Assembly (NCBI GenBank): GCA_036936605.1
Contig: JAUPFV010000005.1
Location: 129,391,961-129,455,960 of the forward strand
Source: Limnanthes douglasii subsp. nivea
Taxonomy: Eukaryota > Streptophyta > Magnoliopsida > Brassicales > Limnanthaceae
DNA length: 64,000 nt
Direction: 5' to 3'
The translations under genes and the position numbers were made by a program. The notes under the pieces are model-generated. The model did no database searches. It saw only the letters and a list, made by a program, of their open reading frames with translations, and was not told where the DNA came from. Of the stretch, positions 4,577 through 57,779 are shown piece by piece (position 1 is the first letter of the stretch; each line of letters begins with the position of its first letter).

Positions 4577-4993
4577 ATGCAGAGGTTTTTTTAGCATAGG
4601 TCGGAATTTCTCACTCCCAAACATATTTTTATGGGATAAAGTAGATAATTAGTCTAAGATATTTTTAGTGAGGATGATGAGATTTTTTAGAGAGAGAAAA
4701 TTAGTTAATTATTCTAAAGAGGGAAGTTGTCAAAACTAAAAGTCAAATAATGATTGTGTGTCATTCGCAAAAACTAGTACAACTATTTATAGTAGAGTTG
4801 GTTACCCGCTGAACCTACATGAATGGTTCCTTTTGATACCTCACCCTAGTATTTTACTAAGTATAATTTTTTACATTATATACCCTCTATGTTTCTCATA
4901 TGCTAAAATCAGTCTTACATATTAAATATATATAATTTTATTACATTAGACCAATATGTGGGTCGGATAAATCCTACTTTTATCAGGAACCAC
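4577..4993 (-). repeat. 3' LTR of gypsy element
   Basis: Pairs with the right-hand LTR through AGTCTAAGATATTTTTAG, TTTTTTAGAGAGAGAAA, AAAGTCAAATAATGATT, TTGATACCTCACCCTAG and TATCAGGAACCA. Boundaries are uncertain by a few tens of bases. Confidence 0.7.
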
Positions 4994-6549: not shown

Positions 6550-7543
6550 TTATTTCATTTTGAAAAATGCTTCAGCACATTCTAGGTTCCAGCAAAAATG
6601 ATTGGTCTGCCTGAAAACTTGAAAAAATATGGCACATTTGTCAAACGATCTGAAGATATACTTGTTCAGTGTTGACAGCCTTCTAATTAGCATTTGTACC
6701 TCTTTTATTGACCTAAGAGGGTCCATGCTTGTTAAAGTGTTCAACTAATCTGGTTCAGCTTCAATTATATTCTCTCACTCATTATATATCCCAAGAACTT
6801 CCCTGATGGTACACCGAAGGTACACTTCTCAGGATTTGATTTCAAACGGATAGCTTTCAGGTTATGAAAAGTATGTTCTAAGTTGTAAAAATGATTTTCA
6901 TCTTTAACAATTTTGACCAACATGTTATCAATGTATACCTCCATATTTCTATCAATATAGCTAGCAAAAGCTTTGTTTACCAACCGTTGGTAAGTAGCTC
7001 CACCATTTTTAAGGCCAAAAGGTATCACCCTGTAACAGTGAAAACCCCTGTTTGTGATGAATGTTGTGCTTTGTTGATCCCTCGGATCCATCTGGATTTG
7101 TTTATACTATGCTTCTATGAAGGAAATAAGTATATTACCCAACATCGAATCCACTAGTTGGTCTATTTTTGGGACAAGGAAAGGATCCTTTGAACCAAGT
7201 CTATTCAAATTCTTGAAGTCCACACACATTCTCCATTGAATATTTTTTTCTTAACAAGCATTGGGTTTTATGTCCACATTAGATACTGAACCTCTAAAAT
7301 ATGGCCAACCTTTGATAACTGATCCACGTCTGCCATAATTGCCTCAAATGTTTTAATAGAAAAGGTTCTCATCTTTTGAATCTTTGATTGCTTGTTCAGT
7401 TTTATAGCCAAGACATGACAAATTATAGTCGACGGTACCCAAATTATATTTTCAAGACTCCAAGCAAACATGTGTAATTTTTTTGACAATAAGTGTATCA
7501 GCCGTTCTTTGATCCCTTGTGATAATAAAGTGCATATCTTCAA
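6550..7543 (-). pseudogene. Gypsy reverse transcriptase fragments
   Basis: From 7543 to 7268: FAWSLENI, ICHVLAIKLN and DQLSKVGHILEVQY, the pre-RT part. From 7091 to 6765: FHCYRVIPFGLKNGGATYQR, then YIDNMLVK where the catalytic motif is normally Tyr-Val-Asp-Asp, so the second Asp is Asn. From 6744 to 6550: DPLRSIKEVQMLIRRLSTLN, the connection region. These pieces are in different frames with stops between them. The wording is closest to Tat-type gypsy elements as I recall them. Confidence 0.85.
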
Positions 7544-9850: not shown

Positions 9851-10104
9851 AAGCGTACCTCCCAATGTGGTCTTCATTGGTCGCTCCCAATAACATTTGA
9901 GGGGTAAACTAAATAATTGGTCTAAGATATTTTTGGAGGGGATGATCAGATTGTTTAGAGAGAGAAATGAGATAACTATTCTAGAGAGAGAAGTTATCAA
10001 AAGTAAAAGTCAAAATAATGATTATTTCTCATTCTCAAGAAATAGTACACCTATGTATGGTTCATTTGGATACCTCACCCTTGTATTCTACTATGTATAA
10101 ACAT

Positions 10105-10426
10105 AGGGTAAAAAACACCGGTCGTCCTTCACGTTTACCACTTGTAACAAGTTAGTCCCTTTCCTTTGAGGCTGTAATAAAGCGGTCCTTCATGTTTCAA
10201 AACCAGAATAAAACCATCCTTTTCGACCTCAGCCCAACTTTTATACCCTTAATACCCTTTGACCAGCCACATCAGTGATCCATGTAGGATGATGATGTGG
10301 CAATAGTAAAAAAAAGTAAAAACAAAATTTAATTTTACCCTATTTTGAAACCTAAACCTAGCCCAATTAAATAAAATAACCCGATTAGCCCAAATCCTAC
10401 TCTTATCCGGCCCAACTTCTAACCCT
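10105..10426 (+). repeat. Left terminal inverted repeat
   Basis: About 322 bp; matches the reverse complement of 11886-12219 with scattered differences, including blocks such as TCCTTCACGTTTACCACTTG and GGTTATTTTATTTAATTGGG in reverse complement. Confidence 0.93.
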
Positions 10427-10576
10427 AAATCGAATAAGTCACAGAGCCTTTCCCTTTCTTATTCGAACCTAAACCCCAAATCTAATCCTAAATTTCATCT
10501 TCTTATACTCTATCATTCCAACCTATACCAGAAATCTAACCATATTCCCAATTCCTTCTCCTCTCTCATCTATTCT

Positions 10577-10780
10577 CCCAGTCTTCACAGGCCTTGACGA
10601 TTTCTCGCAAATCTCTTGTCTTTTCCCATCGACGTTTCCGATTCCGGCGAGAGATATGACTGGAATCTTGGAATTGAAGATGTTGTAAGCTAATTTGGGT
10701 TGTTCGTCTTCGTCTCGGGAGAATTGGAGGTTTAAGGTTTTGTCATCATCAAAATCAGTGAGTGTTGTTGATGGAGTCAT
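10577..10780 (-). pseudogene. F3H: Flavanone 3-hydroxylase (F3H) 5' coding fragment captured by the TIR element
   Basis: F3H is a 2-oxoglutarate/Fe(II) dioxygenase that converts flavanones to dihydroflavonols in the flavonoid pathway. From the ATG at 10780 the fragment reads MTPSTTLTDFDDDKTLNLQF, RDEDEQPKLAYN and IPVISLAGI, characteristic of the F3H N-terminus. A one-base deletion after EICEK (about 10607) shifts the frame; in the restored frame the residues VKACEDW follow before similarity stops at about 10577. Only about 68 of some 360 codons are present and no catalytic residue is included. It cannot encode an enzyme but keeps homology to the functional gene. Confidence 0.88.
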
Positions 10781-10880
10781 AGTTAGGGTTTTGGAAGTTG
10801 GGGATTTTGAGTTGCGTTAATGGTGATGGATGCATGAGGTATTTATAGGAGGTTTTGAGAATAGCAGAGCCAACTACCAT
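10781..10880 (-). promoter_or_regulatory. Captured F3H 5' UTR and core promoter with TATA box
   Basis: On the minus strand a perfect TATAAATA (10840-10847) lies about 60 bp upstream of the F3H ATG, normal spacing for a plant core promoter and short 5' UTR. GGTAGTTGG at about 10873-10881 (minus) resembles an R2R3-MYB box, as found in phenylpropanoid gene promoters. Retention of the promoter is inferred; activity is unknown. Confidence 0.65.
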
Positions 10881-10896
10881 CTCCATGGTAAAGGTT
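10881..10896. repeat. Retrocopy flanking direct repeat, 3' copy
   Basis: On the minus strand AACCTTTACCATGGAG, directly after the A tail; identical to 11403-11418. It begins with AA, as expected from L1-type target-primed cleavage. Confidence 0.9.
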
Positions 10897-11402
10897 TTTT
10901 TTTATTTTATTTCATGAAATCACAGGGAAGATATTTTGGCAGATCTATGCAGAGTTCTGATTATGGAGGTAACCCAAAAAAAACTTCAAAAAAATTACAA
11001 AACAGGAAGCCATAGACAGTAGAACTGCAGGCCAAGTAAGGATTAACCCGAGATAGCAGTGTTGAGAGCACTGTGAACATCGAATCCAATCTAAGCTTCG
11101 GCTTTCTCTAATTCAGTTGTAGCCGAACTCAGCTTCTGGGTAAACTCTGCAAGGCCTTTCTCAACAAGGGCAGGGTCAATTTTGTCAATCGGCACTGCCT
11201 CCACGACTATAATATCAGCAACAGAGTTAGCATGAATGAAAGCAAACCCACTGTTGAGGAAATACTTCTTGGTTTTACTCCCTTCGTGGACGGACATGAC
11301 ACCGGGTTGCAGCTCTGTAATTGTTGTAACATGCCCTGGAAAAACACCCATGTGCCCTGTTGTTGCTGGAATAATCACCATGTCAACCTCATTTCTAGCA
11401 AG
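10895..11402 (-). pseudogene. Retrocopy of mitochondrial ATP synthase delta-prime subunit, 5'-truncated
   Basis: The plant mitochondrial F1 delta-prime subunit (homologue of bacterial epsilon) is part of the ATP synthase central stalk. The copy reads [40 protein letters not shown] and [24 protein letters not shown]-to-TAG change (11091-11093) stops it 14 codons early; the old C-terminus IGFDVHSALNTAISG and TAA (11043) remain readable. A 3'-UTR-like segment ends in an A-rich tail (9 A at 10895-10903, preceded by AAATAAAAT). No intron is visible, and perfect 16-bp repeats flank it (10881-10896, 11403-11418). These are hallmarks of LINE-mediated retroposition. Confidence 0.88.
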
Positions 11403-11408
11403 CTCCAT
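11091..11408 (-). CDS. Chimeric 105-codon ORF: target-site ATG joined to ATP synthase delta-prime
   Basis: The ATG at 11408 lies in the 16-bp repeat that belongs to the insertion target, not to the ATP synthase mRNA. It reads in frame into the subunit as [10 protein letters not shown] and runs to the premature TAG. Its context on the minus strand is ACCATGG, strong for plant initiation. The product would hold most of the beta-sandwich and part of the helical hairpin but no mitochondrial presequence. Whether it is transcribed is unknown; F3H-derived sequence at 11419-11885 lies upstream of it. Confidence 0.45.
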
Positions 11409-11418
11409 GGTAAAGGTT
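11403..11418. repeat. Retrocopy flanking direct repeat, 5' copy
   Basis: Identical to 10881-10896. The last three bases (GAG) could also belong to the ATP synthase sequence, so the true target duplication is 13-16 bp. Confidence 0.9.
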
Positions 11419-11885
11419 GTGAAGAAGGCACGATACTAGCTACCAGACTGTCTTGGCTTTGAAAATCTTTAGTCAATTTTAGATTTTTTTTAGGGTAAAT
11501 GTGAAAGAAATCTTCTGAAAATTAGCATGAAATCTTAGTTTTGATGTTTACATTAGCTAATATATGCGTATATTCATCTGAAAAATAATTTTCAAAACAT
11601 CCTTCTAATTCTTAAATATTTCTTAAAAATCATCGTATCCATATTTTCTAACTTAATGTAATTACAATTTCTGAAATACATTAAGTATTATTTTTTATAA
11701 TAAAATGAAATCATTAAATTTTTCTCCAATAAAATAAATATTTAAAAATCGATCCCATTTAACTCGTAATAATTAAGCTCTTATCTGTAAATGGAGCTAA
11801 GAGGACACATGTGTCATTTTGTACTGATGCTTATAAAAAACCAGCAAAAGCAAAGGATAAAACGGATAACAACGACCCCTTATAA
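11419..11885 (-). other. Probable continuation of captured F3H upstream sequence
   Basis: AT-rich, without coding potential. If the retrocopy is removed, this segment joins directly to the F3H core promoter, so it is probably the distal F3H promoter. This follows from the nesting order, not from a recognised motif. Confidence 0.4.
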
Positions 11886-12219
11886 GGGGTTAAAATGTTG
11901 GGCCGGATAAGAGAAGGATTTGGGCTAATCGGGTTATTTTATTTAATTGGGTCGGGTTTAGGTTTCAAAATAAGGTAAAATGACGGATAAAAGTAAATTT
12001 TGTTTTTACTTTTTTTACTGTTGCCACATCAGCATCCTACGTGGATCGCTGGTGTGGTTGGTCAAAGGGTATTAAGGGTATAAAAGTTGGGCTGAAGTCG
12101 AAAAGGATGGTTTTATTCTGGTTTTGAAACATGAAGGATCGCTTTATTACAGCCTCAAAGGAAAGGGACTAACCTGTTACAAGTGGTAAACGTGAAGGAC
12201 GACGGGTGTTTTTTACCCT
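11886..12219 (-). repeat. Right terminal inverted repeat
   Basis: About 334 bp, ending TTTTTTACCCT. Its inner edge adjoins a small palindrome (CCCCTTATAAGGGG, 11876-11889). Confidence 0.93.
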
Positions 12220-12356
12220 ATAAACATATTTATTCCTTTTTACATTACATACCCTTCATATTTCTCATATGCTAAAATCAACCGTGCATATTAAATACAG
12301 ATCATTGTATTATATTATACCAATATTTCAGATAAATCCTACCCTTATCAGGAACA

Positions 12357-13049
12357 AGATCAACTCATATTAAATCTAGAGACGTCTTTAAGACTAGCTT
12401 TGCTAGAGTAGTAAACCAGTTTACCACGATATGTACAAAATCTTCAAAATCTAGCTAAAATTGGCACTATACCACTTGGTATACTTTAGGATCAGATATC
12501 CAGGGTTAAAGACAATCGGCAATGCACACAATAAAATAAAGGAAATAATCTTCATCAAAGTAATCATTCCTCAATTCTTTTGCAAAGACTGAGGATGGGA
12601 TCTAGTGATAAGGGCATATTTCAACACCACAACCAAAGCCGAGTAGCAACGGATGTACCTGCAGCTGACACTCTGGTCGATAGCCTTAGTCAATGCCCCT
12701 CTTTAGATGGCTTCTTCTGACCGATGGCCTCTCAGAAATCCCACCAATCGGTCGACATTACAATATAACCTTCATAATTAAAGCTCCAATAGGTACACTT
12801 AGACTGCATTACCACATGTAAATGAATGTATCAGGTTGTTACAGTCTTTTATGATCATGAAACCAATTAATTGTATGTACTAAATATAAATTGTTACAAC
12901 ATCCCATATATAAAGGAGACAAACTTATTAATAAAATCAATCTATAACATTTATATTACTTTTAATACTATTTACACTCATTATATATGGTTGTAATTGC
13001 TTTAACGAATCTTTTCCCCGTACCAATAATTAACTTTTTCATATAACAT
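12357..13049. other. Intergenic DNA between two gypsy remnants
   Basis: No coding similarity recognised. A somewhat GC-richer part at 12600-12760 has no identifiable origin. Confidence 0.45.
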
Positions 13050-13850
13050 CGGTCAAATATCATATTTTAATCTTTGTTGGGGCAGATAGATTTATGAAGA
13101 TGACACATTTTATACCATGTTCTGGGATCCATTATGCTTCTCAAATAGCAAACTTATTCTTCAAAGAAGTGGTGCATTTACATGAAATGCAAAGAACTAT
13201 TATCTCAGATCGAGACACCAAATTATGAGCCAGTTTTGGAAGAGGCTATGGGGACTAAAATGTTATTTACAACAACATTTCATTCCCAAACAAATGTTAT
13301 GGTAAAAATGTGAGCAATCGGTTGGGATGTTTACAATTCATTGAGTTTGTTTATAATCATGCTACCCACTCTACTACTAAACTGTATTTTTTTAAGTTAT
13401 GTATGAATTAAAGCCTTTGACTTTATTGGACTTATCTCTACTACCAGCATCAACGTATTCAGGCTAAGATGTTATAAACAAGGTTGAACTTTTTATAAAA
13501 TAGACAAGAAGGTTAAGGAGAAGATAGAAACGAAAATAGAGTAGTATAATCGTCAAGGACATAAATAACCCAAAAACTTAATCTTTAGACCTTGGATACA
13601 CATGAGACCCGAAAGATTCCACAAAAAAAGCTCTAAGCTTCTATCTCGTGGAGATGGTCCATTCAAAGTTTTGGAGTTAATCAATGATAATGCCTACAAA
13701 TTGGAGCTTCTATAAGATATGAACATTTCTACAAGTTTTAATGTTTTCTATTTATCTCCATTTGAGACAGATGAACCAAACAAATCTGATTGAAGACCAA
13801 TATGAGATCTTCAAAGTACCACTGATGGAATTGGTCGTATAACATGCTCA
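13050..13850 (+). pseudogene. Ty3/gypsy integrase remnant, plus strand
   Basis: Plus-strand frames give [20 protein letters not shown] and [15 protein letters not shown], the gypsy integrase core with its second catalytic Asp. Then comes the C-terminal GPY-like region: KLLSRGDGPFKVLELINDNA, YKLELL and FNVFYLSPFE. Stops and shifts interrupt it throughout. It is a different lineage and opposite strand from the 4.6-12.4 kb element. Confidence 0.8.
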
Positions 13851-25688: not shown

Positions 25689-28600
25689 CTAAATCAAGAC
25701 TATTAGTTAACGAAAGTGGCACCTTGTACATAGGATCATGCTTCTATGGCTATATATTCCAAATTTCTAAATATAAGTACAGTGGAAACTCAAGTGAGGA
25801 GTTGGACCAAATGTTCCTAGCAATTCAAAGTTAAACATTATGCAGAACCACGCTAGACTCTCCAACTAAAAACAATAAATCTCCGTTAACCTATTTTCCC
25901 TTCATTTGCTATTAATTAGATTAGAATGACTCAATTGCAAAATCTAGCTTTCAATAAAGTGTACTTGACAAATAAAACAAAAAAGAAAAGTTTTCATGTC
26001 AGCAAACAACAAAAATTCCACTATACATTTTGATAGATGATATGTGTTTCACGCATCACTCAACATAATAAGCTTCTAAAAACATGATTATTATCTAGAT
26101 AAGCTCATATAGCTGCTTTTGAAAAACACAAGACGGCTTTCAGCTCCCATATGCTACTGAGGTTTACCTAATTATTATAATTGCACAGAGCCTGTGGATG
26201 CATAATCCAAAATATCCACATTTAATTATAAAAAAAACGAAAAAAGTAAAGCCTCTTTACAGTATCCGGTGTCTTAGTAATGGTAAGTTTTATATAAAGG
26301 TATTTGTTATACTTTCTGACCAATACATGTTTTGACATCTTTGGCTGTTTAGTCCAATATAATAATATCTTATGATACCTAAATGTACATCTTTTTTAGC
26401 TTTTCCTTAACTAGCAACATGATGCATGTATTACCAGTTTAGATCAGCATCAAAGGGGGTGCAACAGTTGACAACTTGTGTTTTCAATTCCCCTTTTTTT
26501 ATATTCAAGTTCTTTATTGTAGCATTTGTTAAAACCAAATGACTTCAATGCATTTGACGAGTTCGAAGTATGGACATAAATTATATAGGAAAACTTCTCA
26601 AATTAGTTCTAGTAATTTAAAAGGATATCGATATAAGAAAATGATTTAAATATCAGGCAAAAATTAACTTCAGTGAAGACATTCCAACAAATAACTTAGT
26701 TGCAGAATATTTTACCAGCTTTTCATGTTCGAGCAAGTGGATTGCCAACTGGGATAATCTGAATTGGAGCTTTGCATGAGAACGAGATGCCATGTTTACC
26801 ATCCGACAGTCAGAAGACTCACAAAGGCGTAATACTCGGGTGGGACCTTCTGCATATACTTCGTATCCTACCTTCACTGGCTCTTTTCTCCCAGATCCCC
26901 CTTTATTAGTTCTATGGCCTCTGGATTGCTTGTCAAACATTGAGTTCGTTGACAAGGCTCTATTTAGTGTCGCCTTTAAAAGCGGTTTCCATGGCCGCAC
27001 CTTATCGAGCCTAATCTCTCGTAATGGATGCATATCTGCAAAATATGTCAATGACCAATTTCAGCAAAATGTTCTTAAGCACCACTAAGCACTGAATCAA
27101 TTCTAATCACTGACAGTTAGAAGAGTAGTTTAAGTGCAGTTGCTACCATTGATTATAATGACTAGTTTATGTGGAAGGGTCACATCATCCCAGACATAAT
27201 CAGCTCTACATCCAGGTCCTAGAAATTCTAGCTCCGCGGACCCCTAAAGATTTCAAACAAACAATTAATCGAAACATAAGGGGAAAGAAACCATCAACTG
27301 TTAAATATGTAGCTGATGATAACGTGAAAGAGAACTATAACCTTTTGATAGTAAGTAAGAGAAATCCCCTGCAAGCAATTATCAATACGGTATGGTAGAT
27401 TGATATTTGGAGGCTTGTGGAATTGGACAGCTAGAGTTGAGCCTTCTTCTGTCACAGTAATACAGGCAAACTCAGCTACATGTTCTTCTTCCTTCTTGGC
27501 ATCCTTCCTAAATTTAAGGAAAAAGCGACCAAGAGACGTGATGCATAAAGGCCCAGACCAAGTCAGGTTAGGATCGCTCAGCCGGAATTGGATATATGCT
27601 AAAGAGTTATCATTGTCGCTACGGTGCTTTCTGATGAATTTTTCAAATAAACTGAATTCTGTCCTCTTGATAAATCCATGGCGCAACTGCAGCACTGCTT
27701 TATGTGAGCCATTGATGGAAACTATACCAGCAGTGTCATCCTTTTGAACATACAAAAAGGAAAGAAAGAGAAATGTGCAATTAAGTGCTAAGTAAACATT
27801 GTTAATATTCAGAAAAGATCAGGCAATTAAGATGAATGAATATGAACCTCAAGATTACATTGCCGGACCAAAATGGTTTCCGAGGACTCGTTAAGTATGA
27901 TATGTCTGGGCACCAAAGTCAAAAGTTGTGATGGTACAAGCCCCATAATTGCCAATGATGGTCCAATAGACACTCCAAACTTTGTAATATATTTGATTCC
28001 AGAATTATCAACTGTTTCCAAAGTTATCTCTGTTAGGGCAGATAAAGCGTCAAGGTCCAAAAGTGACTCCGATGCAGAATCTTCCAACATTTTAATCCGC
28101 ACCTTGTGGGATCTGGTAAATAGAGTAACATAAGAAGTCTATACAAAGATAATAAGTAATAACATATAACAAAAATAACATGAAAAAGGATGAAGTTTGC
28201 GAATCATGACCTCAAAAACCACGACGATGTCGACTTTCCGGGCAAAAACAATCCCAAATCCGGAGGAATGCTGGGACCAAATTTCTCTACTTCTTCTCTA
28301 CATTTAATTACCATAATCAATTCAGAAAGTGCATAAAAGGTATATAGTGTCCATTGACCAAACTCGGACCCAATACCTAGATATAGTCTTTTGCTTAGGA
28401 GCCAAAAGAAACAAACAAAATTCGGTATCATTCTTTAGTGCATATTTTGTAAAGATAGCTGCCTGCAAACAGATACAAAGTTCATCTTTCCAAACATACA
28501 AGTAACAAAACTCGTACAATATGAACCATAACAACTAACTTCAGAAAAAACAGACATTAACCAATATAAAAAAAATCAGATAAGAATTATATAAGTACAA

Positions 28601-31600
28601 TAATAACATATGATATTGACACTGCATTAAAACCTCTAATATGCCCCTGTCTCCCCGTGACAATCTCAAAGTTGCATAGTATTTTCCACCACCAAAATCC
28701 AGATCAATATCCAAAAGCCGAAGATTCTTCTTACGTTTATCTAACTTCTTGACCCATTCACCACTGTTAACAGGTTTGCAGCTCGAACCAAAAGCAGTTA
28801 AAGTAGCACTGAAGAAAATAATGGAAGGATTGACAAAAAAATCAACTGTTGATCCATTCAGTATACTCGCCTGTTTGCAAATATTTCCGCAGCCCACAGG
28901 GGGACATTGTTCTGCAATAAAATAGAAGTCAAAAGAAATCAAGTACAACATCAATGCAGATATTTATCTTCTTTTACCTGTCTCGCTTAAGAGGACATGT
29001 ATCTCCATATGCAATAAGTTGGCCACCCGTACAGTAGGCAGAAGAAATATTTCCTTTTGCTCTTGAAATGCAATTGGTGAGTTTAACTTTTTGAAACCAT
29101 CAGCCGATATTTCCGGTTGAATTATAGGTACATCTCTTACAATTGTTTGGGTCAAAAAATGCATGTCATCCACACTGACATCTTCAGATCTGAGGGTACA
29201 GTGTGTACTACTGAAGGAACACTTCATTGATTCCACCGATAAAGCTCTTCTCGCTCCATAGCTTAATTTTTCAAAAATACCAGATACACGAGCAGCGTTT
29301 CCACCTTTAAGCTCTTCTGACCATTCCACTGAAAGAGGACCCTCAGGCCTAATCAAGTAATCTGAAATTTCTGGTTTAAAAGAAAAGAAGAAGTTACCTG
29401 CAAATAAGTTTACACGCATAAGTTCATAATTCCACGGACTTTATATCAATATTAAAAAATCATATAGCCACTAGTTTGCATACTGAGATCTTGAGGGTCA
29501 AAACTATACTTGCTAGCATATAGCTAATTCTGAAACAACCAGGATAATATAAATCAAGTGACAATATTTAGAGCCAAAAAAGCGTTAAAACAAAATTTGG
29601 TGATCTTAAGAAACCGAAAAATACGTTAAAAAAAAAACTATTCATGACGAGTGAACCATAAGAATTGAAAAGACATAAAAAACACTTTTCTGCTGCAATT
29701 GTAAATATAGTATCAAAAAAATTACCAAAATCCTTAATCTCCTTGGTTCTTATCTTGTTTGGCTTTCCAAAATATTTTGTAAGAGAATAGGGGAAAAAAG
29801 AAGGGAGAAAAGGAAAAAAAACACAAATAGAACCATCAAGTAATGTAGAAGGAAATAATTTCCTGACATCCCCTTGGTTTTAAAGAGAGAAAAATCTTTC
29901 TTCAGCTTTTACATAACTTTGCCTATAGGCAATTAAAACTTCCTTTTTATATTTTCAGTATAAACAAACATTAAAAAAACTCCGTATATCTTTAATTCCT
30001 CAAATTATGAGCTTTCATACGCCATTTAAAAAATTGTTATAAAGGCAGATGTCTAGCTTTGCCCGTCACTTTGTTCCAATGTATTCACCTCGAGAAGTAA
30101 AGTTCAAGACAAGACTAGGGTAGCAGAATAAAGAAATTTCATTTCTGAGGGTATTATTCTAAAAGTACAGTTACTAGATTAAAAAATATTGCATCTTCAA
30201 TTATCCATGCAAAAAATAAATAAATAAATGAATACTGGCTCCAATTTCATTCATGATGTAGCAAAAGGTGCAACTCAGAGAAAAGAGAAATAATTATACT
30301 GTCGGCAATAGGTGATAAAATACTTCTAACTGAAAAAAAATTGAGAATAATCAAGTCCACGGGCCAATAATGTTGTGAAGAGAGTTGAGATAGAAATAAT
30401 CCTGTAACCATATACGTTTCAGTTGGTTAAACTTTTAAAGACATGAATTGACAGTACATACCGACACTTAAGGATGTCAACGCCTTCTTTAATTCTCCAG
30501 GCTCATTTATAGCATTAAAAGCTGCTATTGAATCATCAACTATATCACCTGCCTGTAACCTCACAGTAGCAAAATCATCATGATTTTGATGAGGACATCG
30601 GATACGTAGCACCATGGTAAATTGAGTGTCATTATGTATCCTTATCAAAGGTGACACCGTCACTGACAAACCCTCCTACAAGGTTTTACCGATATTTGTA
30701 AAGGAAATAACTAATACACTTAGACAAACATTTCATGGGTGATTTCATCTACAAAGGTTTAAAAGAGTAAAAGATACCTCAGATCTATTTGAAGTACGAA
30801 CCACAATGAATGGCCCTGGGTAAGTCCTAGAATCTGTACAAAGAGAATCTTTTAGGGTAACACACTTTCGAAACTATCACACAGAAAAAGATGCATAAAT
30901 TATTCTTTTAACCTTTAACATTAAGACAGCATACAAATTAGTTTACTGAGATTAAACCAAGCTTTTCTCATCAGCTTCAACTTTGGAGCTATTTGGTCAA
31001 CCAAACATTTATTTGGCATGCTATTTATAGGTCTTGAAGTTCAAATACATGAACCTATGTGAAACCCAATCTCTAATACATCTAATGCCTTGCCCAAATT
31101 TGTGCCTCCAGTAACAACTGATATAGTCTCGCAACCAAAAATTTGCACTTGGTTCTATACACAAAACCACGACATACTCGCAGATATGTTCGAATGTAAT
31201 TCAGTAATTTAGATCATTTGCAATAGCAGATTAGTTTGAAGCTTGTTAAAGGAAATAATAATATATATTGACTAAATAATTTATTATAGTCAATATTCAA
31301 ACGTAATCTATTATAGATATTATTAGATTAGATTTTATTAGAGTAGACTAGTATAATAATAAGATATTTTCAGAGCCTATATATATGGCTTTAACTTATA
31401 CTGAAATTCTAAGTTATAATAAATCTTTTCTAGTTTTTACTTGTATCAGAGCCATTAGGGTTTCTATAAAAAATCTAGATAAAAAAAATCTAGATGGGTG
31501 TTCGTGGTGGATATAATGATTATGGTAGTCATGGTAGATCAAACTATCGTGGTAATCACGATTATGGTAGTTGTGTTAGATCAAGCGATTATGGTAGTTG

Positions 31601-34600
31601 TGGTAGATCAAACTATCGTGGTAATCGTGGTGGGTACGGTAATCGCAGTCGTGGTGGGTACGGTAATCGCAGTAGTCGTGGTGGATACAATAGTCAAGAT
31701 GGATACAATAGACATAACAGTTCTGGTAACCATGGTGGTGATCTAAACAATGTTCAATTTGCTAATATGACAACGAACGAGGAACCTCATGTGCTTTCCG
31801 CCGAGGAATATGCTCAATTTTCCAAGTACCAAGAGTCTCTAAAGTCACAAGATCTTAAAAACCCTGCAGCTTGTGTGTCAGGTGCAGCTTGTGTGTCAGG
31901 TAACTCAACTACATGTCTTATTTCTTCTTCCTCTGATTGGGTCATTGATTATGCTGCCACAGAACATATGACAGGTAATAAACAAGTTTTTACTTCTCTT
32001 TCAAATACACATCATTCTAATGTCACATTGGCAGATGGATCATCATCTCGTGTTTTAGGTTCATCTCGTGTTTTAGGTTCAGGGACTGTCAATCCCACCA
32101 AAAATCTCTTTGACATCTGTTTTACATCTCCCTCAGTTTTCATTCAACCTTATTTCTATTAGCCAACTCACTAAAACACTAAATTGTGTTGTTACCTTTT
32201 ATTCTGATCATTGTTTGTTTCAGGATCTTACGACGAATAAAATAATTAGTAGAGGGCATGAGAGTGGAGATCTCTACTATCTTGATAAAGACTGTCATAC
32301 ATCTACTGCATGTTCTAGTATTACATCTCCATTTGAAGCACATTGTCGTATGGGTCATCCATCTTTAATCTCTTTAAAACAACTTTATCCTAAATTTCGG
32401 CATTTGACATCATTAGAATGTGAGTCATGTAGATTTGCTAAACATCATCGTCTTCCATCATATCCTCGTATTAATAAGCGGGCTGCATTTCCTTTTGAAA
32501 TTGTTCATTCAGATGTTTGGGGTCCTTGTCCTGTTGTTTCTAACACTGGTTTTAAATATTTTGTTAGTTTTGTTGATGATTATTCCCGTGTTACATGGCT
32601 GTATTTAATGAAAAATCGTTCTGAGTTATTTTTAATATTTTGCACGTTTACTGCAGAAATAAATACCCAATTTAATTGTCCTATTCGTATTTTAAGAAGT
32701 GATAATGGTAAAGAATATTGCTCAAATGCATTTCAATTATTTATGGAACAAAAAGGAATGATTCACCAAACTTCGTGTGTGGACACGCCATCTCAAAATG
32801 GTGTTGCTGAAAGAAAAAAATAGACATCTTTTAGAGGTTACTCGTGCACTTCTTTTCCAAATGAAAGTACCAAAATTATTTTGGGCAGATGCTGTTTCCA
32901 CTGCATGTTTTTTAATTAATCGTATGTCATCTACTATCCTTTCAAATAAAATTCCATATTCCGTGCTTTTTCCATCTAAACCTCTATTTCCTATTGAACC
33001 ACGCATTTTTGGCTGTACTTGCTTTGTTAGGGATGTAAGTCCTACTCGTACAAAATTAGATCCCAAATCCTTAAAATGTGTTTTTCTTGGATATTCTAGG
33101 TTTTAAAAAGGCTATAAATATTTTTCCCCATCTCTTGATCGTTACATAGTACTAAGGATGTTACATTTTTAGAACATGTTCCATTTTTTCCTGGTTTGTC
33201 TAATGTCGATCCAGAAACCACTACTGTGGATGATGATTTACTCATGTACACCACCGTTCAAAGATCTGATGTACCACCTCCACCATATCGACCTCCTATT
33301 AGATATGTTTATTCTCGACGTAAAGCACCTCCTCCATCATGTCCACTACCAATTCCTTCGTCTCCAGATCCTGCTACAAACGATAATGAGTCCACTCCTG
33401 ATCTTCCTATTGCTCTTCGAAAAGGTAAACGACAATGTACTTATCTAATTTCTTATTTCGCAAAATATGATCAATTAACTTCTTCTACCCGAGCTTTTAT
33501 TGCATCTCTTGATTCTATTTCTATTCCAAAAACTGTCCACGAAGTATTAAGTCATTCTGGCTGGCAAGCTGCAATGTTTGAAGAGATTAGAGCATTAGAA
33601 GACACTGGTACTCTTGGAAGTTGGTTGATTTACCCACTGGAAAGAAAGCTATCGGTTGTAGATGGGTGTTTAATGTAAAAATGAATCCAGATGGGACGCT
33701 AGCTCGTCTCAAAGCACGACTTGTTGCAAAAGGATATACTCAAACCTATGGTGTTGATTACTCTGAAACCTTTTCTACGGTAGCTAAGTTTACTTCTATA
33801 CGTTTATTTATTTCCTTAGCAGCATCAAATGATTGGCCATTACATCAGTTAGATATTACAAATGCATTTTTACACGAAGAGCTTCAAGAAGAAGTCTATA
33901 TGGAGCAACCACCTGGATTTGTTGCTCAGGGGGAGAGAGGAAAGGTATGTCGTTTGTATAAATCATTGTACGGATTAAAACAAAGTCCCCGTGCTTGGTT
34001 CGGCAAGTTTAGTGATGCATTAAATGAATTTGGGTTGAAGAAGAGCAGTTGTGATCACTCTGTCTTTTATAAACGTTCTGCAAATGAAATTATACTCGTT
34101 GTTGTATATGTAGATGACATCATTATTACTGGGAATGATACTAAAGGCATTTCATTGCTTAAAATATTTTTACATTCGCGATTTCAAACAAAAGATTTAG
34201 GACCATTGAAGTATTTTTTGGGGGTTGAAATAACAAGAAGCAACAAAGGTAATCTTTTATCGCAGAGAAAATATGTTCTAGATTTGTTGATGGAAACAGG
34301 AAAGCTAGGAGCAAAACCATGTAATACACCAATGGTTCCTAATTCGCAATTACTGAAAGATGACGGAGAATTGTTTAGTGATCCAGAAAAGTATCGTCGA
34401 TTAGTAGGAAAACTCAATTACCTTACAGTAACTCGACCAGATATTGCATATCCAGTCAGTGTTGTAAGTCAGTTTATGTCTTCTCCAACAGTTAATCACT
34501 GGGCAGCACTAGAACATATCTTGTGTTATCTCAAATCAGCTCATGGACTAGGATTGTGGTATGGCAGTATTGGTCATACAAATATAGAGTGTTTTGCAGA

Positions 34601-37600
34601 TGCAGATTGGACTGGATCTAAAACTGATAGAAGATCGACCACTGGTTACTGTGTTTTTGTAGGGGGTAATTTGGTATCTTGGAAGAGTAAGAAACAAAAT
34701 GTTGTATCGCGATCAAGTGCTGAAGCTGAATATAGAGCCATGGCTCAATCTACTTGTGAGATAATTTGGATTTTCCAATTATTAAATGATATTGGCATCA
34801 AGACTACCATGCCTGCGCAATTATGGTGTGATAATCAAGCGGCGCTGCACATTGCGTCTAATCCTGTCTTTCACGAAAGAACGAAGTATATTGAAATTGA
34901 TTGTCATTTTATCCGCGAAAAGATTCAAGAAAAATCTCATTCATACGAGATATGTCAAAACAGGAGAACAACTAGGAGATATATTCACAAAAGCGCTCAA
35001 TGGATCACGGATTACTTATATTTGTAACAAGTTGGGCATGATTAATATATATGCTCCAGGTTGAGGGGGAGTGTGATTTCGTTTCAGTCTTTCGATCAAG
35101 CTTGCACTTCAAGTACTTCAGTTAAAGCACTTTCGCACAAGCTTGAGGGGGAGTGTTAAAGGAAATAATAATATATATTGACTAAATAATTTATTATAGT
35201 CAATATTCAAACGTAATCTATTATAGATATTATTAGATTATAGATATTATTAGATTAGATTTTATTACAGTAGATTAGTATAATAATAAGATATTTTCAG
35301 AGCTTATATATATGGCTTTAACTTGTATTGAAATTCTAAGTTATAATAAATCTTTTCTAGTTTTTACAAAGCTTGACAAGTAGTTGTCCAAAGTATTATT
35401 GCCACAGTTAACAAAGATAAAATCTGAGTGCATAAACAAATCTTAAGTGAAAGAGTAATCTTATCATATCAAAGTTATTTGAACGTACACACAAGGGTGC
35501 CTAATATCCAGTGACTTTGAACGAGTAGAAAAAGAAGGTCTAAGTACTCACCCAATGATCTGGATATACTAAATGTGAACCCGACTAAATAACACAGTTC
35601 TTGGGCAAATTTATTTGTATATAATAATTCTCCAAAGAAACTTCAACACAGACCAAAAAGGTATTTACATACCTTGAACTATTTGCGTTCTCCAAGCAAG
35701 TGCTTGAGTTTCTAAAAGGGATATATTAACTGAACTAGTTGTAGACGATCCGACTGAAAGTTGGACTGAAACAACTGGAGCAGCGTCTGGAGCTTCATTT
35801 GCGAAAGCGGCGTGCCTATACATTAAGATTAGCCAATCTATTATAAAATTATCTCCAGAAACACAGACAGGTGAAGGGGGTGTGTGTGTACAAGCATGCA
35901 TGTACACGCTTTCATGCCTGTCTATAAGATTCTAACTAATAATTATCTCTATGATAGTAAATCTTTCGATGCAGTTGATCACTTGACTGTGCAAGCAAGT
36001 GCATTCATAGAACTGAACACGCGCTAGAAAAAATTTGTTCAATTAAAATTATGATGATCATGCAAGGCTTCAAATCCATCGGCTTATAGAGAAGTATGTA
36101 AGTGTCCAGATAGTTTTTATGGCTTACCTTGGAGGAATCAGAGTTTGCTTTTTATTACATTGAAATAGAAGGCTCAATCCTATTTGGTTTTCAACCTGCG
36201 TAAATAGAAATTTTCAGTCTCATGCAGCAAAAAAGCTCCATTGGAGTCGGAGTCCTATATACGAAGATGCATTTTCTGAACCGTGATGTAACAGACCTTG
36301 ATACAATGGGCAAATATTGCAGAGCTTCTAACTGAAAAGGGACCAGCCAAGTCTAACTTCCCAATCACAAAGAGAAGTATGTCCAATGAAGCCTCAGTCA
36401 GAAAGATCTCCATCTGTTTACATGCCACAGTTACAACTTTGGATGTAGCAAGACGCAAAAATTATCATATAAGAAACATGATACCTTGTTAGTCCGACAG
36501 TAGATATGAACAGGCATTTTACGCAAATTATTTTCTGAATCCCCAGTCTGGAATGTAGAACGTAAAACCATACAAACTTCAAGTGGCTGAATAAATTCTC
36601 TCCTGTGGCCATTCATTAATCAAAATAGAAAACTAATTATAACTTGGCTCTTTGCGAAACTTAGACAAGAGAAAAGAGGGAAAAGACACATGGACATCAG
36701 AAGAACACTGACCATATATTCCTCTGGGTGTCATAGTAGTTCAGCAAAGCCTCTAATGTTCCAACAACCCTGACTTTAGTAGATAGAATCTGTACAGTTA
36801 ACTGGGTTTTCTTTAATGAACCGTGAAGGAGAGAAAATCTATCCTTTGACTCTACAAGTTCATCCACAACAGTCAGAGAAACTTCATCAATTGTAATTTT
36901 AACACAGGGGAGAACTCCAATCTGTGCAGAAGTTTCCCTTTCAATTTTGTGGGCTCCACCAGGCATGTGACTATTTGAAAACTCCAGACCGAATGTTTCA
37001 AGCACAGAAAAATCACCAAATAGTTTCAACTTGAATGGATTTCCTGGCTTCTTGATAAACTCTGGAATACCATCAATAAAAGCAACAGCATATTCACTCT
37101 TCTTGTTGACAAGGTAAAAGGTGCCTTGAACCAACTGATTGTAAGGCTCCCAATCAATGTCACTATTATACCTCTCAGGTTCACGAGAAAGTGCTCTCCA
37201 AAGTGATGATGCATTGTCATAAGTACCAGATATGTCAACAAAACCTGATCCTGGGCAGTAGTTCAATTTTAACGGCTCCCCTGCTTCATTTTTAGCATAC
37301 AGTGATGTCAACGAGAACCACAAAATTGATGACTTCCACATCTTCTGCTTATGGTATTGGACCTATGCATAAATTTGAGAAAAGATTATATAAGGCATTA
37401 ATATATTAAGGCCATCTACGATGAAATTTAAAAGTAATAATCAGTTAATAAATCAAAGAGATGGAAAGTCCTTAGAGCATTGTATGTTTACAGTTCTACA
37501 TTCAGCTCTTCATAGCATGGAAAATATATAAAAAACAGGGAATCGGTGAGGATCAGATATTAACAGAATCAGTAGAGATAAAAGGCGGGCACTCTGTCTA

Positions 37601-40600
37601 TAATCAGTTAATACATCAAAGAGATGGAAAGTCCTTAGAATATTGTTTGTTTACAGTTCTACATTCAACTCTTCATAGCATGGAAAAGAAATAAAAAGCA
37701 GGAAATCGATGAGGATCAGATATTAACAGAATCAGCACAGGTAAAATTAATGGGTACTCTGACAAGAAGAAGATCAATACCCATAGTTTTAAAACATACC
37801 GCATTCACCCTGATGCAACTATGCAATATCATATAAAGATACAAACATACCGTACACCAGACACAAATACTCTAGGCATACAGATGGAATTTTCAAAACT
37901 TCATAATTGATCAATCGTGTGTATATATATATATATATAATACAGTGCAGAGAAAAACATCTTTTGATTGATTACAGAAAAGAGTTCTTTATCATACCCT
38001 GAAAAGAGCTTTTTCTCCTACGAGCGAATAATGAAGTGCACCAGCTAAAGTATACTTGTCACACACACCTTCAACTGTCAAGTACAAGTGTTGGTGTACA
38101 TCTTGAATTGCAACAATTGCTCCTATATATAATGATTAGTTAAGTTATCGGAAGTCTGCAAAATAAAAACAACGTACCAGAACATCTAAATATAAAGTAC
38201 CATCAAGAACAATAGCCTCAAAACTTTTGTCAATTTTAATGCTGCTGGATCCTTGCCTCACGTCAAGGAGATTACTTGTCTCACTGCTCCACAGGCCACC
38301 AAAGGTAGACACCATAGACAGGATCATCTGATGTAATAAAGTAGATTACATACATACATGTTTAACCATTGTAATTCAAAACTTATGTCTTTAAATGGTG
38401 GTACTGAATAAAGTGTTCACGTGCAGGAAAATATGTAATGTTGGACATCCCTTCAAAGTTGTATTTTAAATAACTTCTCTTACCTGGAATTCGGGCAGAG
38501 AAAGGATTGCATCAAAACCTGAAACAGAACCAGAGCCGACCCAAGCCTGGCTTAACTGCAGAGGCCAATTATAAGGCCCATCAACAGAAACAAAAGCACC
38601 AAGATGTCGCAATATGTAGTTCTGATTTTTTATATTCAAAATGTCAGATACGCAATCTTTCACAGCAAACTCTTTCTCAGAGACAGGATCTCTCAAAAAC
38701 CTAGCACCATCAGCTGAAGCATTTTCATGTCCCTGCTGGGACGCTCGAAAAATAACTTCAGATGCAGAATAGATAGATGATTCATTTGTTGTCAGTGAAG
38801 AGAAATAAGGGATTTTGTTTTCATTTTCAGAATTCTCGCAAAGGTCTTGAGAAAGAATTGATAAACGAGCAAGATCACAAACAAGTTTTTGCTGCATGCT
38901 AACGATCTCGAAGTCCATATGGATATCCACTTCAAGAACAAGCTCCTGGACACCACCTATATAAATCACCAACTTTTGTTGACCTACTGTCCAAGCATAA
39001 TAACGAAATTTAGACTACATTGAAAGTACCAGTTTCATTTTCGCCAACAAAGACAAGTGAGAACTTAGACGCATCAATAGAAAGAGTTTCCAACAAATTT
39101 GATTTTACTTGCTGAGAACAAAGAAGTGGCTCCTGACCATGACCATACTCCGTCAAAGAACGATCATTGTGCCCAGACATACCTAAACCAGCTTCAGTTT
39201 TCTCAAGGCATGCAGTCGATGTAGGTAAATTTGATAAGACACTTGTTACGTAGTGCAAGAATGAAGAAAAACCTAAAAGTAATGTCACCGCAGCTATAGG
39301 TTCAAGGACAAAAAGACCACCCTGCCAGCAGCAGCATACATCTCATTAGAAGTATTTAAGGACTTGAATATATAATAAATTTAATATGTTACATTCTAAG
39401 TACTGAATGAGACAGAAGAACTACTGATTAAAACCAATAAAGCAGGGTTTCTAGTAAAGTATAAAGCTCTAGATAAGACAGTTTGCACCTGGATACTCAA
39501 AGTGATTGTCTGAAATTTCGCCCCTACAGAAACCGAGATTAGAAGCTGAGTAGACTGATGAGCGCCAGCCAAAACATTCTTTATTGAGCACCTTGATACA
39601 AAAACCTCACTCAATGCTACATTTATGAGTATCCAATTGGTTAAGGCAAGTGTGGGAATATCTGAGACAGCCCCTGACTTTTCGCCAAAGCTAAATGATT
39701 GAACGGTCGATATCTCAGGTTCCTTTGTCATAAATATATTCCTGACAGTGTATGATGAACAATCCCTTGATGCTGAACCATCAGGTGCATAGCTTAATCT
39801 TCTAGGAGATGATGAATCCCCAGGTTTTCCTAACCATATGGTAAAGATTAAACTAGCAACACATATTTCATACAAGCAATTATCCGAATTCAGCGGGAAT
39901 TTCTTTGATAGAAAGTAATCAAAATATTTCAATTTCTCTTCCTGATATCTGAAAAGTAGAGACTGAATTTCCGACAAATCAATTCGGAAGCCAAGCTTCT
40001 TTTCTTCATAAGATATCTCGAGACATGTTTGATTAACAGAACACCAAATTCCACAGTTGCCCGCGTCATGATGTGCTAACTTTCTAATGGTATCCGCGGC
40101 CGTCAAAAATCTCTTTACCTTGTCATCTACCCTATAAATTTGAAGAATCATATCCATCGGCATCAACTTAAACTCCACATTAGCTAACAAAAGAGTTTTA
40201 GTACAAAGAAAGGAAGAATCTTCAGAAAAAGTTGCATCAAGCTCATGTTCCACGGGGACCACAACAGATCTTTGACTGGGTAGATAACCAACAGAACTGT
40301 AGCTGTTAAAAGCGTTCGATAAAGCCGAATATGAACGTACAAATACCTGGCATAGATTAACCGAGTTCAGTTATTGAAATGCTGTAAATGTAAGAAACAC
40401 TGTCTTGTTTGGTATTCTTCAGTAGTCGACAACAACTAAAAAGCACGTGCTACCCAATTACAAATTAAGCGAAATAAGTCTTTTATAATGAATTAAGTAA
40501 CCAGTCCTCTCTAGCCATTCAGTTGTGTACCGAAGGGTCTATCTGTTATTAATTATAAGCATCCATTATCAATTATATTGACTACTAACATCACATAAAC

Positions 40601-43600
40601 AATCATGATACTCTCTGCTTTGACCTAAAGTAGTGTATATACACACTCTCCGGGGCCACAAACAAGGCACCAAGTCGCTCGAGACAGCAAATGAAAGAGT
40701 GAGTGAGAGAATAGTTAACTCTAGTCTTACTTTCTTTCTCGCTGATACAGATTTATCGTGAGATACGGCATCTGTAATGGAACCCAGCGATTTATATTAA
40801 GATACATTTACGTTGGGTTTCAAAATTAAGTTACGTATCACAAGTCACGATAAGTGCGATACCGATCGCAATATTTGGCAACTATATAATATAGTAAACA
40901 AGGGCTACATATAAGAAGAGAGCAGGTAACAGAAAAGAAACAACAATTACCTGAAAGAACATGTACAACTCATCCACAAATGGTGCAAAAAATAATCCAA
41001 AAGCCAACCCATTCAGAGCTGTTGAGAAAGCAGTAACAGCTGTTCCGAAACTATAAACAGACTCCCTGCATGGCATTATATCCCTACTTAAGATGCAAAC
41101 TACTTTAACTTTCAATATCAACTACAGTCATGATGCAAACACGTCCCCTCAAGCAAAGTAAATAAACGAGTAAACATCTTTAGCATGCCATAGTACATTT
41201 TAGCATGCTTTGATACAGGATCCCAGAAACGAAAATATAACTCAAATATAATTTTAAGCATTTTCATATAAACAAGTAAGAACAGAAATATAAAAGCAAA
41301 ATACGAGGCTGTCAAGTATTCACATTTCACTGAAAAAGGCTTCAGTTTCTCCTCTACGATGCAAAAAAGAAAACATCATAGTGAGAAAGGTAAAGGTCAC
41401 CAAAGTTTCTAATTCATGAACATTAATGACCCAAACTACTACCTGAAGAGCAACAGCTGTAGAGTTATAGGCTTCAATGCAAGAATTTGCCTCTGTCGAT
41501 TTTCTGCAAAGTCCCAAACAAAAGCATCCAGTCCAATGACTCTCATGTATGAAAACAGTGATACCAACCCATGAGATGCATACTTGTCATTATATAATTT
41601 TGGAAGATCAATCATCTGGAACTTCTGAAAGGTGGCGCACTCTGAGTCAGCACCATCATGTCTTGAGCAAATGTCTAACGCAATTGAACCAATATTTGAA
41701 GCTGGGCAGACAACAACTTCAATGTTATGTATGTTAATCATGAGATTCAAATCCTCTTGGACAATCACATCATTTGCCTTTTTTTTGTTGCTGCCTGCTT
41801 CATTATTTCCTAGTGATATCTGGATATGAGGACCGACGATGAATATGGCAAGTTCAACAAGTTGCTCCGAAATAATCCTATGCAAGGCCATCTTCGTCCT
41901 TGTAGAATAGAGCTCATATTGGTCATACAAAGTAATTATTTCCGCCTCCTTAATGCTTTCTTGGTGACCAATACTTGCTTGTGGACAGCATGAGAAAAGT
42001 CTAGCCCTCACATTGTCTGTAGCCAAGCATTGCGCATATTGTATCTGCCCAAGAAGTAATATAATTGATTGAATTGATGAGTATCCGAAAGTAAAGTTCA
42101 CCTTCCCAAGTGTTATATTGCATTTCCAAGATCCAGAATTTTTATTCTTGGTATCGCATAATGTTAAAAACTTTTTGGTCTCCCACAAAAACCACGGAGA
42201 CTCACAATACTCAATCTTGTATTCTTCATATGTCATACAAGCCCTATGCCACCCCAACCACATTTCTCTGGTAAACCTCTCGAGATGTGAAGCACCTTCA
42301 TTTTGACTGGTGGAACCATTCCTATCACATTCGTCATGCAGAAACAATTGCATGGGCTCAGACCACAATATAGTCGAAGTTTTATCTTCCATTTTATTTC
42401 CATTTACAGAATTATGAAAATCCTCTGAACTATTCTTTATACAAGGAGGCTCACTAAAGGTTAATGTTTTAGCCATCAAATGTCCACATGACATTGATAG
42501 ATATTGTTTAGAATCAGCTTTATTGTACATGAGTAGAAACTCTTTAACTGAAAAGCTAAATGAACAGAAATCTTGATACAGACACCCACTAGGAGAATCT
42601 AAATTTTCAATATACAGATTAGTTTTACCTTCTGGATATACCGTGACAAAAACCTTCCCAAGATTTAGAATGAAGTGCGGTTGCGAAGAAGAGTAATCAG
42701 AATCAATTCCTTCGTCATTTTCAGTTTCTGGTGGTTTAGGAATATATTTCCTTGGAAAAAGTAATAGTTGCACTACCTGAAATAATCCACACAAAAATCT
42801 CCAGAAAGATGCTGGTACTTGAAGGGCCTTGTAAAATATTTGATACCGTCTATAAACAAAGGAGTCACTAAAGCTATCTCCAGCATCTTGATGATCTAAT
42901 GTGGCTCTGTATCTGGCTACTCGCCTAGCACGTGCAATAGCTTCAGAAGGCAGCTTTTCTTCAATCTTAGAAATAGCCTCCCACTTACGTGCAATTGAAG
43001 TTGAGAGCATTTTATCTTTTGATAGCTTAACAACGAACCTACTCTTGTCATAGGAGTGTACAGTTACTGAGAGCAAATACTCATAAGCATTTACATACTG
43101 CAGCCAGAGAATTGCAGTGGCCACTGTATTGTGCAGTGACAATCTCAGATTGCCTATTCTGCTTGCGGCTACTTTCCATAGATACCGGCCACTTCTAGTG
43201 AATTTATCTTTTTTGAAAGATAACATTTCAAGTGCTTTAATAACAGGAAGGTCGGCAGGAGACAACAAGAAATTTAATTCTGGGATACGAAGACTGACAC
43301 CAACAAGCTGAAGATCATGCAATTTGATGCAAATGAAAAAAAGAGTTACAGCACAAACATATATGGCACGGTCAGCACTCTTATACCCAATCGCAAAACC
43401 ACGGCTCTTGATAGTAAAAGTGTTCTTCTTAAGAGGTCGAAAAAGCGCATAGACAAGTCCCCCTAGAAGATTTCCATTTACACAGTTTTGGGATTCAGCA
43501 TTGAGCTCCTTAATTTGCAACAAGTACACCAAACTATCATTCAGAATAAGGTGCCGCAATTCCAGATCAAAGTTAAATATTTCCAAATGACATTGTCTAA

Positions 43601-50399: not shown

Positions 50400-51255
50400 C
50401 ATATCATAACTAAAGTAAAATAAAAGTTTCATCTACGAAATATTAATTATAAACAAATAATTTCACATACGATAAGAAAGTAATACAAAAAAAATAAAAA
50501 ATAAATTCACATGCCAAGTTGAAATCCAAAAAATATATTTTAATATACAATAAAAAAAAGTAATCAGAAGAAGGTGAAATAACAAACACTCACAATAGAA
50601 CATGACGTGATCCATGTTACATTACGTAAAATATTTTTACTTATCATAAGAAAGTAATACAATAAAGGTATAATAAAATTGTCAACTTACGAAATTGAAA
50701 TCTAAAACATATAATTTCACATCTCCGACAAAAGTAATACAAGAAATGTCAAATAAAATTTCTAGATGCAAAGTATAAATTCTGAACCAATAATTTCACT
50801 TACCATAAGAAAGTAATACAATAAAGGTACAATAAAAGTTTAATCTACCAAGTATAAATTCTAAACAAATAATTTCAGCTACTATAAGAAAGTAATACAA
50901 GGAAGGTAAAATAAAAAATTCACATGCGAAATTTACATACAAAGCAAATAATTTTACCTTTAATAAGAAAGTGACCCGAGAATGGTGACATAAAAATTTC
51001 ACCTACCAAGTATAAATTCGAAACAAATAATTTCACCTACTATAATAAAGTAATACGAGAAAGGTTAAATATAAATTTGACCTACCAAGTTGAAATAAAA
51101 AAACAAATATATCACATACTATAAGAAATAGTACAAGGAAGATAAAATAGAATTTTCACATGTCAAGTCTAAATTCTAAACAAATAATTTCACATATCGT
51201 AAAAAGTTATAGAAAGAAGGTGAAATAAAATTTATATACACCACGTACCCGTAAG
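50400..51255. repeat. Tandem array, ~79-bp unit, about ten copies
   Basis: The unit carries AATTTCAC, ATAAGAAAGTAATAC, AAATAAA and TATAAATTC. The anchor AGTAATAC or a close variant occurs at 50479, 50559, 50653, 50733, 50812, 50891, 50970, 51049, 51129 and 51205. Apart from the 94-bp third step, spacing is 76-80 bp. Units differ by substitutions. No ORF. Confidence 0.88.
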
Positions 51256-57665: not shown

Positions 57666-57779
57666 GTTAACTACTTCAAAGATGATCAATCTTTGCTTAA
57701 TTCTTAAAAATAACTTAAGTCTTTTAGTCTAAAATAATGATTGGCCAAGAAAAATAATTTTATTGATACTTATGAATGT

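Follow-up and report, generated by a model that had tools for sequence, protein, structure and literature searches.

A delta' retrocopy inside an F3H-carrying Mutator-like element of Limnanthes douglasii: evidence for retroposition after capture

The window analysed here is a stretch of 64,000 nucleotides from Limnanthes douglasii subsp. nivea (assembly GCA_036936605.1, contig JAUPFV010000005.1, positions 129,391,961 to 129,455,960 of the forward strand). It contains a Mutator-like element (MULE) of 2.1 kb (window 10106-12218), which lies within one long terminal repeat (LTR) of a decayed Ty3/gypsy element. The MULE carries the 5' end of the flavonoid gene for flavanone 3-hydroxylase (F3H), a dehydrin promoter and, inside the captured F3H promoter, a spliced, 5'-truncated and A-tailed copy of the mRNA for mitochondrial ATP synthase delta'. 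A sequence-only reading of this DNA had described four nested layers, the LTR, a terminal inverted repeat (TIR) element, the F3H promoter and the delta' retrocopy, and all four are real. The features are as follows, in window coordinates:

4611..4990, strand not given: partner LTR copy, an uninterrupted (pre-insertion) LTR, 80-82% to the MULE flanks
6768..7106, minus: reverse transcriptase fragment between the two LTR copies, PF00078 at 7.6e-18
9881..10105, strand not given: interrupted LTR, left part
10096..10105, plus: MULE target-site duplication TATAAACATA, left copy
10106..10577, plus: left terminal arm, with the TIR proper at 10106-10425
10577..10780, minus: captured F3H exon 1, codons 1-68, ATG at 10780; the window copy has lost 1 bp
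10781..10896, minus: 5'UTR and core promoter of the captured F3H, with TATA CCTATAAATACC at 10838-10849
10881..10896, strand not given: 16-bp target-site duplication of the retrocopy, left copy
10897..11402, minus: delta' retrocopy, with 15 nt from exon 1 spliced to exon 2, plus 3'UTR and A tail
10903-10897, minus: A tail of the retrocopy
11045-11043, minus: parental stop TAA in the retrocopy
11093-11091, minus: stop TAG in the retrocopy
11403..11418, strand not given: 16-bp target-site duplication of the retrocopy, right copy
11403..11545, minus: captured F3H promoter upstream of the retrocopy insertion, homology to ~11550
11536..11873, plus: captured dehydrin promoter and start of the 5'UTR, TATA at 11831-11838, directed toward the right TIR
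11887..12218, minus: right TIR, by inverted-repeat match
12219..12228, plus: MULE target-site duplication TATAAACATA, right copy
12229..12355, strand not given: interrupted LTR, right part

The genome assembly comprises 1.78 Gb, of which five sequences of 293-405 Mb make up about 96%. Elsewhere in the window, long open frames on the minus strand at 27000-44000 (one of 761 aa) resemble a VPS13-type gene, and the self-matches at 57760-59640 and 50410-51250 are typical of diverged tandem repeats, with about 67-82% between copies.

The LTR homology that had been read on both sides of the TIR element is present: 9881-10074 matches 4611-4806 at 80% and 12237-12355 matches 4868-4990 at 82%. The partner LTR supplies a pre-insertion site near 4.8 kb, which is supported though not letter-perfect, as an 11-12-bp indel falls right at the insertion point. 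The two LTRs enclose a reverse transcriptase of the Ty3 type, which identifies the host element as Ty3/gypsy; in a search of the PDB the fragment at 6768-7106 matched three sequences, including Ty3-G Gag-Pol (7q5b, 2e-13). Two gypsy pieces compared with NCBIfam had no match. To the right of the LTR, plus-strand pieces at window 13034-13712 apparently belong to a second Ty3/gypsy element: 13569-13712 (plus) matches SH3_Tf2-1 (PF24626, 2.4e-11), and 13034-13225 (plus) looks integrase-like by eye and has no Pfam match.

The inverted repeats of the MULE (10103-10425 and 11887-12221) are 91% identical over 336 columns, giving a TIR of about 320 bp, in line with the length of over 320 bp read earlier. 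The element begins with GGGT and ends with ACCC, and it is flanked by a perfect duplication of 10 bp, not of 8 bp as first read. For Pack-MULEs the accessible part of PMC3903597 gives a TIR identity cut-off of >75% and target duplications of 8-11 bp, and the window element falls within both.

F3H homology in the window is confined to 10574-10896 and 11403 to ~11550. The best database match of the coding fragment is a Pistacia naringenin dioxygenase (68% over 68 residues; four of the 25 candidate proteins passed), and the fragment has no match in Pfam or PDB. The genome holds a single F3H gene at 78-88%, a three-exon locus at C441:149498905-149500705. Its highest-scoring named protein matches are from Xanthoceras, Acer and Dipteronia (85-86%), a match from Trema is at 87%, and none of the proteins among the matches listed is near-identical. 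No TIR match was found in the 7.0 kb examined at this donor locus.

A census with the F3H 5' region as query (36 of 36 first-look candidates scored) returned 42 rows: the gene itself, 16 elements, and 19 hits on the distal promoter that are short and weak. Eleven of the 16 F3H-carrying elements are without the retrocopy and five have it. The widest captured segment corresponds to L032:3005-3717 and is unbroken in L025 and L026. The junction between arm and F3H lies at L032:3005 in 14 of the 16 elements by BLAST, and in L029 and L030 by alignment. The dN/dS of the F3H fragment against the gene is 0.15-0.65 in 12 elements and 0.61 when pooled among those elements; these values come from few changes and include constraint on the gene itself.

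The sequence-only reading had taken 11419-11885 as F3H upstream sequence. This holds as far as ~11550, and the F3H homology claimed for 10781-10880 is present too; 11551-11885 has a different donor. Window 11551-11886 aligns with C441:153857292-153857546 (88%) and 153857625-153857664 (93%), and the donor locus (C441:153857292-153857664) has an open frame with its ATG 130 bp past a TATA and a Pfam Dehydrin domain (PF00257, 1e-20). No match to the TIR arm was found in the 3.4 kb examined there; the F3H and dehydrin fragments thus both have donors without the ends of the element. Nine of the 16 elements have dehydrin sequence in place of the distal F3H promoter: the five with the retrocopy and L022, L023, L024 and L027. 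L021 has only a remnant of the piece and is placed in this group mainly from the tree, and L025, L026 and L028-L031 are without it. We infer that the dehydrin piece was captured later than F3H.

The delta' sequence on the minus strand matches PF02823 (6.4e-16, one TAG read through), and its best protein matches are plant mitochondrial delta' proteins (80%). The delta' gene is present at one locus, C1:293754974-293756968. The sequence-only reading had named both this gene and F3H correctly. Exon 1 of the gene ends at L033:2613 and exon 2 starts at L033:4003; the intron of 1,389 bp between them is absent from the retrocopy, in which the final 15 nt of exon 1 run directly into exon 2. The A tail is short and is not encoded in the parent, which reads TTTTATTG at this place. 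The retroposition signature described earlier, a perfect 16-bp repeat with an A tail, is exact: CTCCATGGTAAAGGTT occurs in the window, with both strands checked, only at 10881-10896 and 11403-11418, and the tail occupies 10897-10903. Processed retrocopies of the L1 type are expected to have target duplications of about 7-20 bp, a span that includes the 16 bp seen here. In the copy sense, the final three bases of the repeat (GAG) are the same as in the parent, a small microhomology, and the target reads CAC/AACC by eye, where the textbook L1 site is TT/AAAA.

Besides the gene, the genome contains five delta' copies (six of six candidates scored), every one within an element of this MULE family. 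The TAG stop is common to four of the five, and L019 is open. The dN/dS of the retrocopies against the gene is 0.62-2.15, and pooled among the five it is 1.52. With dN/dS about 1, selection on the retrocopy was rejected as an explanation, and the retrocopy looks neutral by this measure. The target duplication starts about 30 bp, and the retrocopy 47 bp, upstream of the F3H TATA; as it lies upstream and not downstream, the retrocopy is not placed for drive by the F3H core promoter.

In the window the dehydrin piece reads rightward and the F3H piece leftward, therefore both captured promoters point outward. The dehydrin TATA is kept in seven copies (window, L017, L018, L019, L023, L024 and L027) and is not kept in L020, L021 and L022; L023 has a change within the F3H TATA. 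The L021 row in the alignment of the dehydrin piece had been cut at a misplaced point and was left out of use. The dehydrin-carrying elements might be mobile pairs of opposed host promoters, one directed out of each end, and the delta' retrogene between the two TATA boxes might in this way have gained a chance of expression, a speculative suggestion with the odds well against it. Still less probable is that the elements are functional mobile regulatory units, whose F3H and dehydrin promoters drive neighbours and for which the family has been kept. The outward orientation of the TATA-bearing promoters, the seven intact dehydrin TATA boxes and the F3H frame, which is open in several copies, would all fit such a role. 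ACGT cores respond to ABA, and a donor stretch with two of them is missing in eight copies that span that point; the deletions in copies and the dN/dS of about 1 of the retrocopy also speak against regulatory units.

The order in which the layers came together can be read from the empty sites. In the F3H gene the retrocopy is absent and the 16-bp target occurs a single time, without any change, as the earlier reading had expected of an empty target. Each of the 11 empty elements likewise has the target once, exact in five and with one or two changes in six. A rooted tree, in which a composite outgroup row combined the F3H gene with L036, places the retrocopy-bearing elements in one clade (support 99.1/100), joins this clade with four empty copies (93.5/94) and places both within a ten-element group (95.8/98). 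Support within the retrocopy clade is poor, and the nesting rests on the rooted tree, as outgroup-free trees alone cannot show nesting. Because the F3H gene and 11 elements are empty and the retrocopy clade is nested, the retrocopy most probably entered a copy of the transposon and not the F3H gene. We put a probability of about 0.93 on the order capture, amplification, second capture, retroposition into one transposon copy and re-amplification.

The divergences agree with retroposition after the capture of F3H. In the same five elements K between retrocopy and delta' gene is 0.021-0.059, and K between the F3H segment and the F3H gene is 0.082-0.107; in L017 and L020, with ratios of 1.5 and 1.9, the contrast taken alone is weak and could be explained by constraint on the delta' gene.

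In the opposite order, proposed from the sequence alone, retroposition of delta' mRNA into the F3H gene's promoter came first, and the TIR element then captured both and inserted into the LTR. The empty elements would on this view have lost the retrocopy later. The nested structure of one copy, taken by itself, permits this. It would have the promoter of the gene hold the retrocopy, and the promoter is empty; the retrocopy would have to be lost exactly, along with one copy of the duplication, in several lineages and in the gene. The copies with the retrocopy carry the dehydrin piece, which is absent in L025, L026 and L028-L031, and in a comparison of two trees the one in which the 11 empty elements were forced into one clade, with the retrocopy-bearing copies basal, was rejected (AU p = 0.0007). 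We consider this order very improbable. The same small chance attaches to independent captures, in which a now-lost F3H allele holding the retrocopy was captured apart from a plain allele: alleles can be lost, but the junction between arm and F3H is common to the F3H-carrying elements, and nine elements, all five with the retrocopy included, hold dehydrin sequence at the same place.

A target duplication was found in 15 of the 18 elements examined, perfect in 12 (8-10 bp) and with one mismatch in three (L024, L030 and L031); in L025, L029 and L035 none was found. The duplications are mostly of 9-10 bp and all 15 differ from one another, including those of the five retrocopy-bearing elements. 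The copy number of the TIR is a lower bound, with 40 of 1875 candidates scored. One relative with the same ends (C112:307923755-307929071) has both TIRs, a perfect 10-bp target duplication (TTGGGATTGG) and a MULE transposase domain (PF10551, 2.2e-13) in a fragmentary frame. The longest transposase frames among the relatives are of 203 and 211 aa, and no active source of transposase was found among them. The window element is a MULE because of its GGGT ends, its 10-bp duplication and this relative with both TIRs and a transposase domain; as it carries host DNA it is a Pack-MULE, and non-autonomous. Membership of the hAT superfamily, with its 8-bp duplication and short TIRs, has practically no chance: the ends do allow an 8-bp repeat (ATAAACAT) to be read, but the duplication is a perfect 10 bp next to GGGT, the family mostly has 9-10 bp, the TIRs are of 320 bp and a same-ended relative has a MULE transposase domain.

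The family also carries other cargo. L035 and L036, which are 90% alike, have the same MULE ends and the left arm to ~10577 with no F3H, and L053 has the same ends without F3H and matches the L035 cargo at 87-92%. A piece of the L035 cargo was considered as an EF-hand and rejected, the likeness being weak and below the Pfam cut-offs; the L053 piece had no EF-hand match in Pfam. In L028-L031 most of the F3H coding part is replaced by about 560 bp (L028:1500-2070), which matches C112:215352918-215353409 at 87% (eight of eight candidates scored). This match presumably comes from a TIME FOR COFFEE gene; the cargo had no match in a Pfam search.

The MULE family appears to add cargo in stages, including two outward host promoters. 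A MULE with arms of about 480 bp would have gained the F3H 5' end (about 713 bp: promoter, TATA, 5'UTR and codons 1-68) and spread. One lineage probably exchanged the distal F3H promoter for the opposed dehydrin promoter, by what may have been a second capture. Target-primed retroposition of the L1 type, presumably using L1 machinery, would then have placed a copy of the delta' mRNA in the F3H promoter of a single element of this kind. The retrocopy-bearing element would have transposed again, giving five copies; the distinct insertions suggest mobilisation in trans by a MURA-type transposase of same-ended relatives. The window copy would finally have entered the LTR of the old gypsy element. 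The idea that a transposon moves a promoter holding a retrogene is borne out, as retrocopy and element occur together at five places.

Two routes, in which a transposon captures a retrogene or a retrogene lands in a transposon and is then spread, look the same in one nested copy and can be separated here. A single genome holds the donors, the empty sites and copies of both classes, so that the order is readable stepwise. Seven insertions keep the dehydrin TATA, so that effects on neighbours are testable. In the literature searched, which was without most subscription journals, we found no example of a retrocopy that inserted into a Pack-MULE and was then spread.

Pack-MULEs are MULEs that carry host gene fragments (Jiang et al. 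2004, as cited in the accessible part of PMC13317346). The family described here resembles them in having long TIRs, duplications of 8-11 bp, the 5' end of a host gene, donors elsewhere and transposase-bearing relatives, and differs in the stepwise addition of host DNA, the two outward host promoters and a retrocopy that appears to have arrived later and then spread. Tgm-Express1 of soybean is likewise a TIR element that packs gene fragments and is linked to F3H; it is a CACTA element which sits in intron 2 of F3H, and its cargo comes from five other genes and not from F3H (PMC1947982, in the portion accessible). Rice coding MULEs with the nested MITE Os0548 likewise contain an insertion that has multiplied with the MULE; that passenger is another transposon, whereas here it is a processed gene copy (excerpts of PMC3903597). 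The MER20 transposon with an ARF6 retrogene is likewise a case of a retrogene inside a DNA transposon, for which the excerpted text names retrogene capture or possibly recurrent retroposition (PMC8277862). By comparison with that account, the empty sites and donors described here resolve what was probably retroposition into the transposon and later spread.
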